Below are positions 41,398 to 47,724 of a stretch of 64,000 bases of DNA, piece after piece. Numbering within the stretch: position 1 is the stretch's first letter; each line of letters starts with the position of its first letter. A program made the position numbers and the translations under genes. The stretch covers positions 2,914,001 through 2,978,000 of the forward strand of contig BFBT01000001.1 in NCBI GenBank assembly GCA_003112755.1, read 5' to 3'. Origin of the DNA: Lawsonibacter asaccharolyticus. GTDB taxonomy: Bacteria > Bacillota > Clostridia > Oscillospirales > Oscillospiraceae. The notes beneath the pieces were generated by a model. That model was not told where the DNA came from. It saw only the letters and a program-made list of their open reading frames with translations, and searched no databases.

Positions 41398-42660
41398 ATG
41401 AATCTGGAAATCATCCTGGTCAGGACGGTCCTGGTGCTGACCGCCGCGCTGTCGGTGGGGATCTCTCTGTGGGGCGGATACTATCTGCTGACGGGCCTGA
41501 TGTCTTGGCGCAGGCCCATGGACTACGGCCGGCACCCCGCCGGCACCCGGTTCGCGGTGCTGATCGCGGCCAGAAACGAGGAACTGGTCATTGGTCCGCT
41601 GATCAACAGCCTGCTGGAGCAGGAGTATCCGGCGGAGCTGTATGACATCTATGTGATCCCCAACAACTGTACGGATAACACAGCGCTGGCCGCCCGACAG
41701 TTCGGGGCGGAGGTGCTGGAGTGCACCGTGCCGGTCCGGTCAAAGGGGGAGGTGCTCCGCTTTGCGGAGGAGCAGCTCTCCGGGCGGCACTATGACGCCT
41801 TCTGCGTCTTTGACGCGGACAATGTGGTGGACCGGTGCTTCCTGAAGGAGATGAACAATGCATATCGGGCCGGGGCCCGGGCGGCCCAGGGCTATCGGGA
41901 CAGCAAAAATCCCTATGACAGCGCCATCTCGGGATGCTACTCCATCTACTACTGGATGATGGACCGCTTTCACAACCAGGGGAAAGCCGGACTGGGGCTG
42001 TCCGCCATGATCAACGGCACAGGCTTCATGGTGGCCGCCTCTACTCTGAAGAAGCTGGGGGGCTGGCGGACGGAGACCATCAGCGAGGACCTGGAGATGA
42101 CCGCCCAGTGCGTGCTGGCGGACGTGCAGGTGGCTTGGGTGCCGCTGGCCGTCACCTATGACGAGCAGCCCCTGACTTACCGGGAGTCGGTAAAGCAGCG
42201 CAGGAGGTGGAGCAGTGGCACCATCCAGGTGGCGCGGCAGTACCTGCCACGGACCGGACGCCAGATGACAGCGGCCCCCCGGGGAGCGCTTCTGGACATA
42301 GGCATGACGATGCTGATCCCGGCCTATCAGCTGGTGGCGGTGGTCAATACGCTGGCCGCGGCCGCGGCGGCCGGCCTGAGCGGACGGCCCTTCACCTTCG
42401 CGGCAGGGGCGTTCTGCGGTGCGATCCTGCTGAACGTGGGACTGACGGCGGTGTTCGCCACCTTGAGCGGCGCCCTGGTGCTGACAGTGGAGAGAAAGTG
42501 GGACCGCCGCCTTTGGAAGAGCTTGCTGGTCTATTGGCTCTTCCTGCTGAGCTGGCTCCCCATCACCATCGGGAGCTTTTTCAAGCAGACTACGGTCTGG
42601 GAGGAGATCCGGCACACCCGCAATGTGCTGCCGGAGCCGGTCCTGGCCCGGAAGTGGTGA
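41398..42660 (+). CDS. Family 2 glycosyltransferase, processive membrane type
   Basis: 420 residues. One N-terminal helix (residues 7-30), a GT-A domain with LIAARNEELVI, the metal-binding FDADN, the acceptor-site acid in ISEDLEM and QRRRW (the Q-x-x-R-W motif of processive synthases), then three to four C-terminal helices. It resembles BcsA/IcaA/NodC-like synthases of beta-linked polysaccharide. No partner genes (deacetylase, exporter, c-di-GMP domain) adjoin it, so the polymer is unknown. AAAGGAGG precedes the ATG. Confidence 0.92.
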   Translation: MNLEIILVRTVLVLTAALSVGISLWGGYYLLTGLMSWRRPMDYGRHPAGTRFAVLIAARNEELVIGPLINSLLEQEYPAELYDIYVIPNNCTDNTALAARQFGAEVLECTVPVRSKGEVLRFAEEQLSGRHYDAFCVFDADNVVDRCFLKEMNNAYRAGARAAQGYRDSKNPYDSAISGCYSIYYWMMDRFHNQGKAGLGLSAMINGTGFMVAASTLKKLGGWRTETISEDLEMTAQCVLADVQVAWVPLAVTYDEQPLTYRESVKQRRRWSSGTIQVARQYLPRTGRQMTAAPRGALLDIGMTMLIPAYQLVAVVNTLAAAAAAGLSGRPFTFAAGAFCGAILLNVGLTAVFATLSGALVLTVERKWDRRLWKSLLVYWLFLLSWLPITIGSFFKQTTVWEEIRHTRNVLPEPVLARKW

Positions 42661-42675
42661 TACATGTGGAAAAAG

Positions 42676-42705
42676 GAGGACCGCCCATGCCCATGGGCGG
42701 TCCTC
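42676..42705 (+). terminator. Hairpin after the glycosyltransferase gene
   Basis: GAGGACCGCCCATG-cc-CATGGGCGGTCCTC; no T-run, so termination is uncertain. Confidence 0.45.
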
Positions 42706-42851
42706 TCAGTTTGTGGGAAAAGCCCTCCTGCAAAAAGCTCCGGGGACCGATGGGCGGCGCCAAATCGAAGCCAAACGCAGTGGATTCGATTTGGAACGGA
42801 GGAGCAAGGGAGCGGCAGAATGAGTGCGCGATGAGCTTTGCAATTGAAATG

Positions 42852-42890
42852 AAAAGGCTCGTGGCAAGCGATATGTCGCTTGCCACGAGC
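42852..42890 (-). terminator. Terminator of the tRNA-Ser pair
   Basis: GCTCGTGGCAAGCGA / TCGCTTGCCACGAGC stem (42857-42890) followed on the minus strand by CTTTTC. Confidence 0.75.
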
Positions 42891-42982
42891 TGGCGCAGAA
42901 GGAGGGATTCGAACCCTCGCACGGTTTAACCCGTCTACTCCCTTAGCAGGGGAGCCCCTTATAGCCACTTGGGTACTTCTGC
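42891..42982 (-). tRNA. tRNA-Ser (anticodon GCU)
   Basis: Acceptor GCAGAAG/CTTCTGC, anticodon loop CTGCTAA inside the CTCCC/GGGAG stem, a long variable arm typical of serine, T-loop GGTTCGAATCC, discriminator G and encoded CCA (42891-42893). Confidence 0.95.
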
Positions 42983-43013
42983 AACTATCAATAGCGCCTC
43001 GTCAGGAAAGAGG

Positions 43014-43100
43014 TGGCGGAGAGAGTGGGATTCGAACCCACGGCTCTTGCGAGTCACCGGTTTTCAAGACCGGCTCCTTAAACCACTCGGACATCTCTCC
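43014..43100 (-). tRNA. tRNA-Ser (anticodon UGA)
   Basis: Acceptor GGAGAGA/TCTCTCC, anticodon loop CTTGAAA inside the CCGGT/ACCGG stem, long variable arm, T-loop GGTTCGAATCC, discriminator G and encoded CCA (43014-43016). It is transcribed before the GCU gene from one promoter. Confidence 0.95.
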
Positions 43101-43130
43101 CTGTTGATCTCCAACTCAGAGGCGAATGAA

Positions 43131-43159
43131 AGCATACCATATTTTGAGCCGTATGTCAA
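43131..43159 (-). promoter_or_regulatory. SigA promoter of the tRNA-Ser genes
   Basis: Minus strand TTGACA (43154-43159), 17 bases, TATGCT (43131-43136). Confidence 0.85.
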
Positions 43160-43306
43160 CCTTAAACTGCGTTTTTTGTGGGCTGTTTTTTCTGAGCCTC
43201 AAAACAGGGGCGGTCAGCCCGCCGGGCCCCGACTGAAAAGGCCCCTGGAAAAAACGGGCAGTGCATGTTCCGCAGGGCGCTTTCGGTTTTTGATATAATA
43301 AGAAGG

Positions 43307-43341
43307 ACCCCGTCCAAATTCATATTTGGGACGGGGTTTTT
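43307..43341 (+). terminator. Terminator upstream of the recombinase gene
   Basis: ACCCCGTCC / GGACGGGGT stem (43307-43315/43329-43337), then TTTTT on the plus strand. It insulates the recombinase gene from upstream transcription or acts as a leader attenuator. The interval 43160-43443 holds nothing else clear. Confidence 0.75.
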
Positions 43342-43443
43342 GATGGAACTTCCCGATTCCCATTTGGTGCGGCTTGTTTATGCAGGGCGTTCTCTGCCGC
43401 ATCGATCTGAATTGGGGCGATGAAAGAGGAGGAGCCGGAAAGC

Positions 43444-44055
43444 GTGGAATATGGATATGTTCGGGTGTCGGGAAAGAGTCAGAATGAGGAGAGGCAGCTC
43501 TATGCCATGGAGAAGGCGGGGATCGCCAGGGAGAGGCTTTACATCGACAAGCAGAGCGGGAAGGATTTCAACCGCCCGGAATACCAGCGCCTGCTCCGCA
43601 AGCTGCGGGAGGGAGACGCGCTCTTTGTCCAGAGCATCGACAGGCTGGGGCGGAACTATGAGGAGATCCTGGAGCACTGGGGGCTGCTGACCCGGAAAAA
43701 GAAGGTGGATATCGTGGTATTGGACTTTCCTCTCCTGGACACCAGGGGGAGGGGAGAGGACCAGAGCCTCACCGGGAAATTCCTGGCCGACATGGTGCTG
43801 CAGATACTGGCCTATGTGGCACAGAAAGAGCGGGAAAACATACGTCAGAGACAGGCGGAGGGCATCGCCGTGGCGAAGGCCAGCGGGAAGCGCTGGGGGA
43901 GAAAAAAGAAAAACTTACCTCCTGATTTCCCGGCACTCTACACGGCCTGGAAAAATGGGGAGATAAGTGAGGGGCAGCTTCTGGAAGTCTGCGGAATGAA
44001 GCGCAGCACGCTGTATAAACGTCTGCAGGAGAAGAGGGCGTGCCAGAGGGAGTAG
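43444..44055 (+). CDS. Serine recombinase (resolvase/invertase family), candidate flagellar-switch invertase
   Basis: 203 residues from GTG 43444 (AGAGGAGGAG 9 bases upstream; ATG 43420 is the alternative). The catalytic domain has the nucleophile Ser9 in YVRVSGKSQ, the arginine motif SIDRLGRNYEEIL, and helix E region ERENIRQRQAEGIAVAK. The C-terminal 45 residues form a Hin-type helix-turn-helix ending CGMKRSTLYKRL. Size and layout match invertases/resolvases of the Tn3/Hin group. It stops 15 bases before a perfect inverted repeat pair that flanks the likely promoter of csrA-flagellin, so it probably inverts that segment. Not part of a visible transposon. Confidence 0.9.
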   Translation: MEYGYVRVSGKSQNEERQLYAMEKAGIARERLYIDKQSGKDFNRPEYQRLLRKLREGDALFVQSIDRLGRNYEEILEHWGLLTRKKKVDIVVLDFPLLDTRGRGEDQSLTGKFLADMVLQILAYVAQKERENIRQRQAEGIAVAKASGKRWGRKKKNLPPDFPALYTAWKNGEISEGQLLEVCGMKRSTLYKRLQEKRACQRE

Positions 44056-44069
44056 GAAGAAAAGTCCCA

Positions 44070-44194
44070 AAAAGTGTACTCAGATAGACGAAAGAAAAAA
44101 TCTTTTCTCTCTGTAATACTTAACTTTTCCGCCGGAATGCCGAAGTACATAACAGAGACCAGGAGCAGACAGAAGTCTATCTGAGTACACTTTT
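44070..44194. other. Candidate invertible promoter element (20-bp inverted repeats around 85 bp)
   Basis: Perfect inverted repeats at 44070-44089 and 44175-44194 (arm AAAAGTGTACTCAGATAGAC). Similarity extends outward with mismatches to about 30 bases. Each arm is itself quasi-palindromic (GTnTA-N6-TAnAC), as expected of a serine recombinase core site. The AT-rich interior carries the only promoter-like sequence before csrA. Confidence 0.7.
44120..44146 (+). promoter_or_regulatory. Sigma-D (sigma-28)-like promoter inside the invertible segment
   Basis: TTAA (44120-44123), 15 bases, GCCGAAGT (44139-44146), close to the flagellar consensus TAAA-N15-GCCGATAA/T. It points at csrA and flagellin in the orientation shown. 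Confidence 0.55.
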
Positions 44195-44233
44195 CTGGAC
44201 TTGGAAAAGCCTTGGGCGTTTGGAGGGAAGAGC

Positions 44234-44488
44234 ATGCTGGTGTTGGGAGTGCGCTCCGGCGAATACATCACCATCGGACAGGATATCGTGATCCAGGTCG
44301 TCAAGGCCGGTGAAGTGACGCGGCTCGCCGTTCAGGCGCCCAGGGAGTGCCCTGTGGTGCGGGGAAAGCTGGTGGAGTCCAGCGGCGGGGCGCCCGACTG
44401 CATCCGTAAGCTGCGCCAGAAGAAGACACCTCCCCATACATCAAGATTCAAACAGGACCGGGACGAGACCGGGGCCCTGTCTGAATAG
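44234..44488 (+). CDS. csrA: Carbon storage regulator CsrA
   Basis: 84 residues. The CsrA core is clear: MLVLGVRSGEYITIGQDI, then VIQVVKAGEVTRLAVQAP and the RNA-binding strand VVRGKLVE. A C-terminal tail of about 35 basic/polar residues is longer than usual. CsrA dimers bind GGA motifs in mRNA leaders; in Bacillus the protein blocks flagellin translation until FliW sequesters it. It lies 69 bases upstream of flagellin, the classic csrA-hag order, but no fliW is present here. GGAGGGAAG lies before the ATG. Transcription appears to come from the invertible segment. Confidence 0.88.
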   Translation: MLVLGVRSGEYITIGQDIVIQVVKAGEVTRLAVQAPRECPVVRGKLVESSGGAPDCIRKLRQKKTPPHTSRFKQDRDETGALSE

Positions 44489-44503
44489 TACCATCCACCC
44501 CTG

Positions 44504-44544
44504 CGGACCGGAGGGAAGGAACCGTCCGGGAATATCAAAAATAA
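44504..44544 (+). promoter_or_regulatory. Probable CsrA-binding leader of flagellin mRNA
   Basis: Hairpin CGGAC...GTCCG (44504-44508/44524-44528) presents two GGA motifs in its loop, and a further GGA is part of the AAAGGAG Shine-Dalgarno. This matches the two-site CsrA repression known for Bacillus hag. Confidence 0.5.
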
Positions 44545-44557
44545 AGGAGAAATCACT

Positions 44558-45655
44558 ATGCGTATTCAGCACAACATCATGGCGATGAACGCCTACCGCA
44601 ACTACAGCAACAACACCAGCGCCCTGTCCAAGAACCTGGAGAAGCTGTCTTCCGGCTATAAGATCAACCGGGCCGGCGACGACGCCGCGGGTCTGGCCAT
44701 TTCCGAGAAGATGCGCGCCCAGATCACCGGCCTGGACAAGGCCCAGGACAACGCCAAGGACGGTATCTCCCTGGTGCAGACCGCCGAGGGCGCCCTCACC
44801 GAGGTCCACGACATGCTCAACCGCATGTACGAGCTGGCCGAGCAGTCCGCCAACGGCACCTATGAGGACGCCACCGACCGCAATCAGCTCCAGAAGGAGG
44901 TCGACCAGCTCAAGAGCGAGATCGACCGCATCGCCGACTCCGCCAACTTCAACGGCATCAAGCTGCTGGACGGCTCCATGAAGGACGGCACCACGGTGGC
45001 TATCGATGCAGGCAGCGTCACTGGTAAAGTGAATGGCCAGGCTATCACCGCTGCTAGCGGAACGGCCAACCTGTCTGGTAACTTCAAGGCGGGTGACACC
45101 GTCACCATCAACGGCGTTACCTATACCTGTGCGAGCCAGGCCACAGGCGCTGACGGCAAGACCTTTAAGGATTTCGACGCTCTGAAGTCTGCTGCCAATG
45201 TAAACGGCGTGACCATCGGCGGTACTGCCTCCAAGGCCACCTTCTCCAAGGCGGGCAAGGATCTGACCCTCCAGATCGGCGACACCAGCGAGACGTTCAA
45301 CCAGCTGGAGGTCTCCATCAACGACTGCCATGTGGCCGCGTTGAATCTCACCGACATGAATATCTCCGACCAGGACAGCGCCGCCGAGGCTCTGAACATG
45401 ATCAAGAGTGCCATCAACTATGTCTCCGACGTCCGCGGCACCCTGGGCGCCACCCAGAACCGTCTGGACCACACCATCAACAACCTGTCCGTCATGCAGG
45501 AGAACATCCAGGATGCCGAGTCCACCATCCGCGACACCGACGTGGCCGACGAGATGATGGCCTATACCAAGAACAACATTCTGATCCAGTCCGCCCAGGC
45601 CATGCTGGCCCAGGCGAACCAGGTGCCCCAGGGTGTGCTGCAGCTGCTGCAGTGA
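44558..45655 (+). CDS. hag: Flagellin
   Basis: 365 residues. Conserved D0/D1 ends: MRIQHNIMAMNAYRNYSNN, LSSGYKINRAGDDAAGLAIS at the N-terminus and the C-terminal NLSVMQENIQDAESTIRDTDVA with a QVPQGVLQLLQ end. The middle (about residues 140-245) is variable, Gly/Thr/Ala rich and surface exposed, the usual place for glycosylation. Secreted through the flagellar export apparatus. It is encoded alone, with no other flagellar structural genes in the window; translation is probably under CsrA and transcription under the invertible sigma-D promoter. A strong terminator follows. Confidence 0.97.
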   Translation: MRIQHNIMAMNAYRNYSNNTSALSKNLEKLSSGYKINRAGDDAAGLAISEKMRAQITGLDKAQDNAKDGISLVQTAEGALTEVHDMLNRMYELAEQSANGTYEDATDRNQLQKEVDQLKSEIDRIADSANFNGIKLLDGSMKDGTTVAIDAGSVTGKVNGQAITAASGTANLSGNFKAGDTVTINGVTYTCASQATGADGKTFKDFDALKSAANVNGVTIGGTASKATFSKAGKDLTLQIGDTSETFNQLEVSINDCHVAALNLTDMNISDQDSAAEALNMIKSAINYVSDVRGTLGATQNRLDHTINNLSVMQENIQDAESTIRDTDVADEMMAYTKNNILIQSAQAMLAQANQVPQGVLQLLQ

Positions 45656-45687
45656 TCCCGGGCAGTTGTTCTGGAACAGCGACCACA

Positions 45688-45721
45688 GGGGGCCGGGCTC
45701 AGTGCCCGGCCCCCGTTTTTT
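45688..45721 (+). terminator. Terminator of flagellin
   Basis: GGGGGCCGGGC-tcagt-GCCCGGCCCCC then GTTTTTT. Confidence 0.93.
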
Positions 45722-45777
45722 AGGCGCGGAGGGCGCTGGCCCCTCGCAGGAATACTTGCGGACCGTGAGGTTTTTCT

Positions 45778-47724
45778 ATGGATACGATCAAAATCGCCCG
45801 CCGGCTGGCGGAGCTGGGACAGACGGCGGACGCCCAGCGGGCCTACACCCTGGCGCTCCAGGCGGCAGGATTGTCCCCGGAGGAGGAGCTGGAGGCCGCC
45901 AGCTATCTTCTCTTTTCCAAAGGCGACTACCGGGTGGCCTATACCAGCTTCCTGTCTCTTTACCGCCGGGGCCTTTTTCAAAAGGAACTGCTGGAGCTGA
46001 TGACCCAGGCCTTCTACCTGCCCAATGTGGAAGCTCTCCGCAGGCAGTATGAGGAGAACTGCACACTGCTCTCCCGCTATCCCTATCTGTTTCGGAGAGA
46101 CTTTCTTCCCTTTGAGGACCTGCCTATTCAATTTTACCCCTATGACGATGACGGCTATCTTCCCTTTGACTGGAAGAGCGGCCTTTTTTCCGACTATGTG
46201 AATTTCCATACTCCAGTGATCGACCGAAATTTTTTCCATGACCTCGAAAAGCCTGTACTGGCATCAGATGTGTACTCCCAGTATCAGCTGGAGTACCTGA
46301 ACGACACGGTGCGCAAGAGTGAGTGGGTGGGCCGGGAGAATCATATCTACCTTCACTACACGGATTGGGGGACCTTCTGCGCCCATCTCCAGTGTCTGTC
46401 CTTCAAAAAATTGCTGAAGGAAGAGAAGCTTGTTTTCCTGATCGAGGACGAGCTTGCCCAATATCCCATCGATTTTCAGGCTCGGTTCCATATCGATTAC
46501 AGCCGTTACCCGGTGCGCCCGGTGGGCATCCGGGAGGTGAACCGCCTGATCTGGCACACCCAGCTGGCGGCCCACAACGGCGGCGACTTCTTCAACGAGA
46601 TCTTTTATGGGCACCCCAATCTTCTGGCCTATGAATCCGTTATTCTGGATGGTATCGACAACCTTTTGGACGAGATGCGCCGCCGGGTGCGCGAGCGTCG
46701 GCTGGAGACCGCCACCGACCGTCAGCTCCTCCAGATCAAACATCCCACTGACAAGGACCTGCTGGTTGCCTATTTTTTAAACCAGCAGGAAAGCAACAGC
46801 AGCCTCGATCCCGATTCCCGCATCACCCCGATCCTCTTCTTCCAGCCCCACTTTTATAATATTTCGTATGATATCTCAGTGGACACGAAGAGCAACAAGA
46901 CCGTGCTCCACTCGGAGCAGTACGACCGCATCCGTTCCTCCGCTGTGTTCCAGAACTTCAAATACATCAAGACCTTCACCCCCATCCGCCGTCCCACCAC
47001 CAGCTATGCCGCGACCATTCGCTTCATGGAGCCGCAAATTGAAAAAGAAGGGCGTATTGTGGCCGATGACCTGACCGCCCGCATGCTCAACCGCAGCTTT
47101 ATGGTGGACCCCTGGGATCGACTCTACCGGGACAGCGTCCTGGTGCGCTTCGAGGACGGCAAGCTGAACCCCAAAGCCACCTTTACTGCCCTGGCGGAGT
47201 TCCTTGACCTCCCCTACACCCAGAGCATGACCTATTGCTCCGGGGCCAGCGGCATCGACCCGGAATCTCTGGCCGGAAATGCCCGCGGCTTTGACCCGGC
47301 TACGGTGTATCGGACCTATGATGAGTTTGCAAATGATGATGAGCGGGCATTTCTGGAATACTTCCTCCGCGATGTCTATGAAACCTATGGATATGATTTT
47401 CACTATTATAAGGGCGAGCCGGTCGATGAAGAGTGGGTGACGAAAAAAATATCCAGATTCACCACTCTCAACCGGTTTATCAGCCGTTCTTGGGAATCTC
47501 TATACCGGAATACTCATAATCAGAAAACTGGAGCTCCCTTGGATCAGGAAGAGATCGAACGGCGTATTCAGGATACCCTCTCCGGCCTGGATTCCAACCG
47601 GCTGCACGTTTCCAAGCTTCTGATGCGGGGACTGCGTTTTATCAATGAAGATGGTCAGCCCCTGAAAATGATGACGCCGCTCAAGCTGGACCCGGCCCTG
47701 CTGGAACAGCCGCTCTATCACTGA
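45778..47724 (+). CDS. Sulfotransferase-like protein with TPR-like N-terminus
   Basis: 648 residues, cytoplasmic. The first 90 residues resemble paired TPR-like helices (AQRAYTLALQAAGLSPEEELEAASYLL). The C-terminal half carries the sulfotransferase-type element YRDSVLVRFEDGKLNPKATF followed by LAEFLDLP, which in sulfotransferases helps bind PAPS; a canonical 5' PAPS loop is not obvious. The next gene makes PAPS and the third could remove 3',5'-ADP, which supports a sulfation role. Its place behind flagellin suggests the acceptor is flagellin or its glycan. An alternative is another transferase of motility-associated glycosylation loci. GAGG precedes the ATG. Confidence 0.6.
   Translation: MDTIKIARRLAELGQTADAQRAYTLALQAAGLSPEEELEAASYLLFSKGDYRVAYTSFLSLYRRGLFQKELLELMTQAFYLPNVEALRRQYEENCTLLSRYPYLFRRDFLPFEDLPIQFYPYDDDGYLPFDWKSGLFSDYVNFHTPVIDRNFFHDLEKPVLASDVYSQYQLEYLNDTVRKSEWVGRENHIYLHYTDWGTFCAHLQCLSFKKLLKEEKLVFLIEDELAQYPIDFQARFHIDYSRYPVRPVGIREVNRLIWHTQLAAHNGGDFFNEIFYGHPNLLAYESVILDGIDNLLDEMRRRVRERRLETATDRQLLQIKHPTDKDLLVAYFLNQQESNSSLDPDSRITPILFFQPHFYNISYDISVDTKSNKTVLHSEQYDRIRSSAVFQNFKYIKTFTPIRRPTTSYAATIRFMEPQIEKEGRIVADDLTARMLNRSFMVDPWDRLYRDSVLVRFEDGKLNPKATFTALAEFLDLPYTQSMTYCSGASGIDPESLAGNARGFDPATVYRTYDEFANDDERAFLEYFLRDVYETYGYDFHYYKGEPVDEEWVTKKISRFTTLNRFISRSWESLYRNTHNQKTGAPLDQEEIERRIQDTLSGLDSNRLHVSKLLMRGLRFINEDGQPLKMMTPLKLDPALLEQPLYH

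Follow-up and report, generated by a model that had tools for sequence, protein, structure and literature searches.

The Hin/hix/fljBA system of Salmonella comprises a serine invertase, 26-bp sites, an invertible segment of about 1 kb that contains hin itself, and the partner protein FljA. Hin has, in addition, a recombinational enhancer bound by Fis. RecV of Clostridioides difficile is a tyrosine-type recombinase. In the RecV flagellar switch of that organism, the invertible element lies upstream of the flgB operon (PMC7446863). Closer to the present case, one paragraph of a recent study (PMC13418256, 2026) describes loci of Flavonifractor plautii and Oscillibacter in which hin is followed by inversions of about 120 bp with a FliA-dependent promoter and by csrA-tldR. 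The same study reports, from RIP-seq, that a related CsrA is enriched at the 5′UTR of an alternative flagellin. Full-text searches of the PMC open library turned up this one paper on such a switch, which is already on record there; judged against it, the locus analysed here is a tldR-free form. It lies in a 64-kb stretch of DNA, referred to throughout as the window, and is best explained, with a probability of about 0.9, by recombinase-driven inversion that switches the sigma-D promoter of a csrA-flagellin unit, csrA2-hag2.

The recombinase, the inverted repeat and the candidate promoter

The recombinase gene (43444..44055, + strand) encodes a serine recombinase, or invertase, of about 203 aa (Resolvase, PF00239, E 1.4e-29). 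Its reading frame opens at an ATG at 43420; by eye, the GTG at 43444 is preceded by the better ribosome-binding site and is taken as the start. Alignment with Sin and gamma-delta resolvase covers the RVS and DRLGR motifs, with the Sin match spanning the catalytic domain and the gamma-delta match spanning residues 11-204, C-terminal part included. The predicted protein thus combines the two parts expected of a Hin/Gin-type invertase, a Resolvase catalytic domain with its Ser/Arg motifs and a C-terminal DNA-binding part. All NCBIfam matches, the Mpi master invertase among them, fall below cut-off. Among the best 80 of 574 matches, relatives from named genomes are 51-61% identical and come mostly from records titled clostridia; relatives within the genus are only about 60% identical. 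Two further recombinases of the family are encoded in the same genome (G000:C1:593737-594318 and 3076865-3077416; 42% and 39% identical), the latter with an internal TGA, and no inverted repeat was detected beside either. Near the switch in three loci of the genus (L155:4338-4580, L160:4461-4700, L184:7097-7417) there is a fragment that lacks the catalytic part and resembles the recombinase in its C-terminal part alone, perhaps as a decoy that binds the sites or as a leftover of a gene.

The gene ends outside the region bounded by the inverted repeat (44062-44202). The repeat arms, to which no strand is assigned, occupy 44062..44089 and 44175..44202; each is 28 nt long, 26 of the 28 positions are complementary (93%), and the interior of the segment (44090..44174, no strand) is 85 bp. 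The perfect 20-bp pair that the initial annotation had placed at 44070-44089 and 44175-44194 is present as part of these longer arms. It is the only perfect inverted repeat of at least 20 bp with a gap of 30-200 nt in the 64-kb window, and no repeat of that size and gap arose in 200 dinucleotide shuffles of 42000-47000. With up to three mismatches allowed, the 20-mer arm occurs twice in the 4.28-Mb genome, both times at this locus. Where recombination would occur within the arms is better judged from relatives, whose sites are 26-bp dyads around a GTGTAC- or GTATAC-like core, rather than centred on the GTnTA-N6-TAnAC dyad proposed initially. The probable 26-bp crossover sites of the window, with bounds taken from those dyads, are 44064-44089 and 44175-44200. 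The dyad inside each window arm is weak under either centre (6 and 7 of 13; at best 4 of 8).

Within the segment lies a motif that, as the initial annotation had noted, resembles a sigma-D (FliA-type) promoter directed toward csrA and flagellin (44120..44146, + strand). It consists of a -35 element TTAA, a 15-nt spacer and a -10 element GCCGAAGT, and is predicted from the motif. Six of 2000 shuffles of the segment interior attained its score (12.5 on an ad hoc scale), and so did just one of 752 85-bp tiles of the window, namely the tile that contains it. The further claim that csrA has no other visible promoter also stands: from the right arm to hag, sigma-D matches on the same strand reach no more than 8.5, and no sigma-70-like site was found. 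Inverted repeat and promoter exceed what is expected by chance. As the predicted promoter faces csrA2-hag2, the window is in the ON orientation.

Downstream, csrA2 (44234..44488, +) encodes a divergent, switch-linked CsrA of 84 aa, with a PF02599 score of 50.9 bits against a curated cut-off of 27 and scores below the NCBIfam csrA equivalog cut-offs. Next comes hag2 (44558..45655, +), a flagellin of 365 aa with Pfam Flagellin_N and Flagellin_C domains and, by alignment with the second flagellin gene of the genome, a short variable middle. Two named flagellins appear among the best 120 of 7996 scored, from a Dysosmobacter MAG (89%) and from Lawsonibacter (75%). A predicted intrinsic terminator follows (45688..45714, +; 11 pairs, all G-C, then a T run), in a region where four terminator-like sites were found against 3.3 expected. 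The order is segment, csrA2, hag2, with no tldR homologue between segment and hag. Directly after hag2, window positions 45778-47724 encode a 648-aa protein without a Pfam match. In L151, L152 and L183, flagellin genes are followed by proteins with similar first residues; as a guess, the window protein could possibly serve in flagellin modification.

Orientation and gene content among relatives

When 44056-44240 was compared at the nucleotide level with 60 other genomes of the genus, the segment had no homologue there except for one 26-nt match (G067), so the likeness of the window to its relatives rests on layout. That layout recurs: relatives repeat the order recombinase, inverted repeat, sigma-D promoter, csrA and flagellin, with the promoter in both orientations. 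Arm sequences differ among them, while the spacing is similar and the promoter lies inside. We compared 31 loci, namely the 29 csrA2 loci of the genus and two named loci from outside it, L049 and L070 (Flavonifractor sp. An306), the latter with a tldR homologue after csrA. A sigma-D match of at least 11.5 is present within 2.2 kb upstream in 28 of the 31, and 23 of these score at least 12. Judged by promoter orientation alone, 11 loci (the window included) are directed toward csrA-hag and 17 away from it. In the three without a promoter, the contig breaks off 32, 1399 and 1400 nt upstream. Automatic detection flagged an inverted repeat at 21 of the 31 loci, one of which (G067:C18) was spurious by eye and had its promoter rescored; since the dyads reported in relatives, and in the window row as well, are not always true arms, only promoter orientation was used. 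The reversed state predicted by the initial annotation for related genomes is thus found in the genus; for the window's own species, represented by one genome, only the ON state is seen, and that genome holds no reversed copy of the segment. In viral contigs, neither the ON nor the OFF junctions of this segment had a match.

Two genomes carry paired segments. Two segments that share a contig in G009 have arms that are identical but for one base, right flanks identical at 190 of 200 positions and left flanks at 166 of 211, the latter matching well close to the arm. Their interiors are 84/87 identical after one is reversed, versus 46/108 in direct comparison, and one promoter points to its own tldR-csrA-hag, the other away from its own tldR. 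In G034, likewise, two segments match at 108/122 positions reversed versus 83/132 direct. These pairs are copies at different places, rather than two states of one locus; nevertheless, the opposite orientations of the paired copies within each genome require an inversion at some point. This kind of segment, to judge from these alignments, inverts. At the level of sequence, then, genes, repeats, promoter motif and, among relatives, both orientations are all seen.

How widely the linked CsrA occurs was surveyed in 64 genomes of the genus. The search returned 65 CsrA matches: 36 score at least 65 bits and the other 29 no more than 56.6 bits, with two of the 29 under the family cut-off. Every one of the 29 low-scoring, csrA2-type genes precedes a flagellin gene, at 302-594 nt from start to start. 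With one query, a homologue of the TnpB/TldR family, called tldR here by sequence likeness (three checked genes carry TnpB-type Pfam domains), was found upstream of csrA in 16 of the 29 loci. Of the 13 without one, a single locus has only 32 nt upstream, which leaves 12 informative cases, the window and 11 others. In the genome of the window, all 11 PF07282 (TnpB/TldR-family) matches are on contig C2; the csrA and flagellin genes are on C1. G010:C166 has the same three genes 3′ of flagellin as the window, on comparison of the first 60 residues: a 648-aa-type protein, an APS-kinase/methyltransferase and a metal-hydrolase-like protein, which we take by eye to be of the PHP type. As G010:C166 has a TnpB-type gene between recombinase and csrA and the window does not, two loci that are otherwise alike differ by the gain or loss of that gene. 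No recombinase lies within 4.5 kb upstream in 9 of the 29 loci, and 4 further loci offer just 32-1400 nt upstream, one of them showing a recombinase start at the contig end. In L162, L163, L165, L166, L184 and L254 the layout is divergent, with the recombinase pointing away from csrA-hag. From an OFF-state sigma-D promoter, transcription would then run toward the recombinase gene, and in the window it would run antisense to that gene.

The recombinases themselves can be viewed as a family. Among 112 loci with a recombinase match (L001-L113 minus L004, which has none), 42 have an inverted repeat with a gap of 80-150 nt no more than 500 nt 3′ of the gene and none has one 5′ of it; in 41 of the 42, an arm contains a GTnTAC-like core. 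This suggests a family of invertases that often adjoin a small invertible segment. A sigma-D score of at least 11.5 in the interior marks 13 of 13 flagellin-linked repeats (11 loci of the genus and the two named outside loci) versus 1 of 13 others (Fisher p 2.7e-6), in a test on the 26 of 67 recombinase rows with a detected repeat, where the cut-off was picked after the scores were seen, related rows are non-independent, and the 41 excluded rows without a repeat include 7 that are flagellin-linked. A single origin of the flagellin-linked recombinases was considered and found unsupported: on a tree of 64 rows, of which 12 lie near contig ends and for which the bootstrap is not settled, 17 changes of the label are required, versus 17.4 in shuffles. 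The absence of one flagellin-linked clade fits repeated recruitment, on a tree that is weakly resolved.

Possible consequences of inversion for the two flagellins

By its position, the adjacent serine recombinase would act on the crossover sites 44064-44089 and 44175-44200, and recombination between them would reverse about 110 bp carrying the sigma-D promoter. In the ON state, that of the window, the flagellar sigma factor would transcribe csrA2-hag2; in the OFF state, the promoter would face the recombinase gene from its 3′ end, leaving csrA2-hag2 silent. For the window's own species, we infer both the inversion and its effect on expression. Searches of the genome gave two genes each for flagellin and CsrA. 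The other flagellin gene, hag1 (C1:325048-326565; 506 aa from the ATG that it shares with hag2), lies about 2.6 Mb from hag2, and the proteins match in their N- and C-terminal regions and differ in the middle. Two rows labelled csrA1 (L267, L285), read from the wrong strand, were disregarded in the alignment set. No recombinase match was found in 16 kb around hag1. The 1500 nt upstream of it contain one 11-bp inverted repeat only, about 1 kb away and about 0.8 kb from the best promoter match, which is weaker (10.0). With no comparable segment immediately before hag1, it is Hag2 whose production would differ from cell to cell. Behind hag1, its 3′ end and a terminator-like hairpin are tandemly repeated with a 230-bp period (L153:4075-5046; G000:C1 at about 324-325 kb).

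What CsrA2 does in the ON state is the point on which readings of the switch diverge. A GGA in a hairpin loop is the mark of a CsrA site. That signature is described in part in PMC13418256. The hag1 leader contains a strong 7-bp hairpin, GGGCAAG-AAGGAA-CTTGCCC, whose loop is AAGGAA, together with CAAGGAGG as ribosome-binding site. Neither element has an exact counterpart in the hag2 leader: CAAGGAGG is absent, and the weaker GGA-bearing hairpin there (44504..44528, +), a possible weak CsrA site from the predicted fold, is missed by our short-loop criterion for GGA hairpins. In a genome with two flagellins and two CsrAs, this would suit an exchange in which CsrA2 is produced by ON cells alone and keeps hag1 from being translated, giving Hag2 filaments when ON and Hag1 filaments when OFF. 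The published RIP-seq enrichment of a related CsrA on the 5′UTR of an alternative flagellin (PMC13418256) points the same way, as does CAAGGAGG in 4 of 19 flagellin leaders classed unlinked versus 0 of 25 classed linked, in classes that are impure since L163 and L181 count as unlinked yet are csrA2-linked in the CsrA survey. On the other hand, GGA hairpins of the CsrA-site type, tried as a discriminator of switched flagellins, do not separate these same impure classes (13/25 linked versus 14/19 unlinked). The hag2 leader too folds into a GGA-bearing hairpin, and a csrA1-fliW pair about 6 kb from hag1 (C1:332 kb) could do the same job. Because the leader test does not discriminate over the genus, we place repression of hag1 by CsrA2 slightly short of an even chance. 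It is also possible, if on the doubtful side, that the switch only adds or removes Hag2 and that CsrA2 brakes its own transcript. The location of csrA2 and hag2 in one unit behind the promoter and the GGA-bearing hairpin in the hag2 leader would fit such a brake, but the CsrA binding reported in PMC13418256 is to the leader of an alternative flagellin.

Other explanations dispense with a working switch. The repeats may be old sites in a segment that no longer inverts in this species, which would account for the single orientation in the one genome, the weak dyads in the arms and the lack of a nucleotide homologue in the genus. We consider this improbable, given that the recombinase motifs are intact, the inner arms are identical at 20 of 20 positions, the promoter motif is kept, and the other loci include 10 ON and 17 OFF. 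Small resolvases serve in many settings. The gene could be an unrelated resolvase or transposon remnant, with the repeat forming a hairpin in the transcript, and the failure of the flagellin-linked recombinases to form one clade is compatible with this. Such a coincidence is very hard to reconcile with a layout that recurs with different arms, similar spacing and an inner promoter, and for the relatives it is contradicted by the reversed paired segments within one genome. The preferred reading, inversion of the promoter of csrA2-hag2, can be extended tentatively, at rather less than even odds, to a tldR-free switch with fljBA logic built from unrelated parts. CsrA2 would shut off hag1 through its leader so that the isoforms alternate; many flagellin loci of the genus would be flipped independently by repeatedly recruited recombinases; and the OFF promoter would drive the recombinase in divergent layouts and run antisense to it in the window.

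Comparison with described switches

The locus offers a compact, testable flagellin phase switch. In its lineage, the closest named flagellins belong to Oscillospiraceae of the gut type, a setting in which the immune system targets flagellin. That paired segments face opposite ways inside one genome is direct evidence of inversion at the sequence level, and the paired-segment loci can be checked in existing read sets. If flagellin loci across the genus do flip independently, the result would be a combinatorial flagellin repertoire. Moreover, the invertible promoter is found with and without a TnpB/TldR-family gene, which indicates that the switch and the RNA-guided repressor are separable.

Like Salmonella Hin/fljBA, which PMC13418256 also cites, the window combines a serine invertase with probable 26-bp sites, and inversion would move the promoter of an operon of flagellin and regulator; unlike in that system, the recombinase gene flanks the segment, which measures about 0.1 kb, and CsrA takes the place of FljA as partner. 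The initial annotation had set the locus apart from the Salmonella repressor circuit. This contrast may be smaller than stated, because CsrA may repress the other flagellin, hag1. With the C. difficile switch (PMC7446863), the locus shares clostridial flagellar phase variation by way of a small invertible element, but here a serine recombinase precedes csrA and one flagellin. Other modules of the same recombinase family likewise have an inverted repeat 3′ of the gene and a GTnTAC-like core; they differ in their sigma-D scores, which stay below 11.5 in 12 of the 13 genus segments without a flagellin link. The closest match is to the hin-csrA-tldR loci (PMC13418256), which have the same upstream recombinase, segment of about 120 bp, FliA-type promoter, csrA and flagellin, and from which the window differs in having no tldR homologue at the locus.
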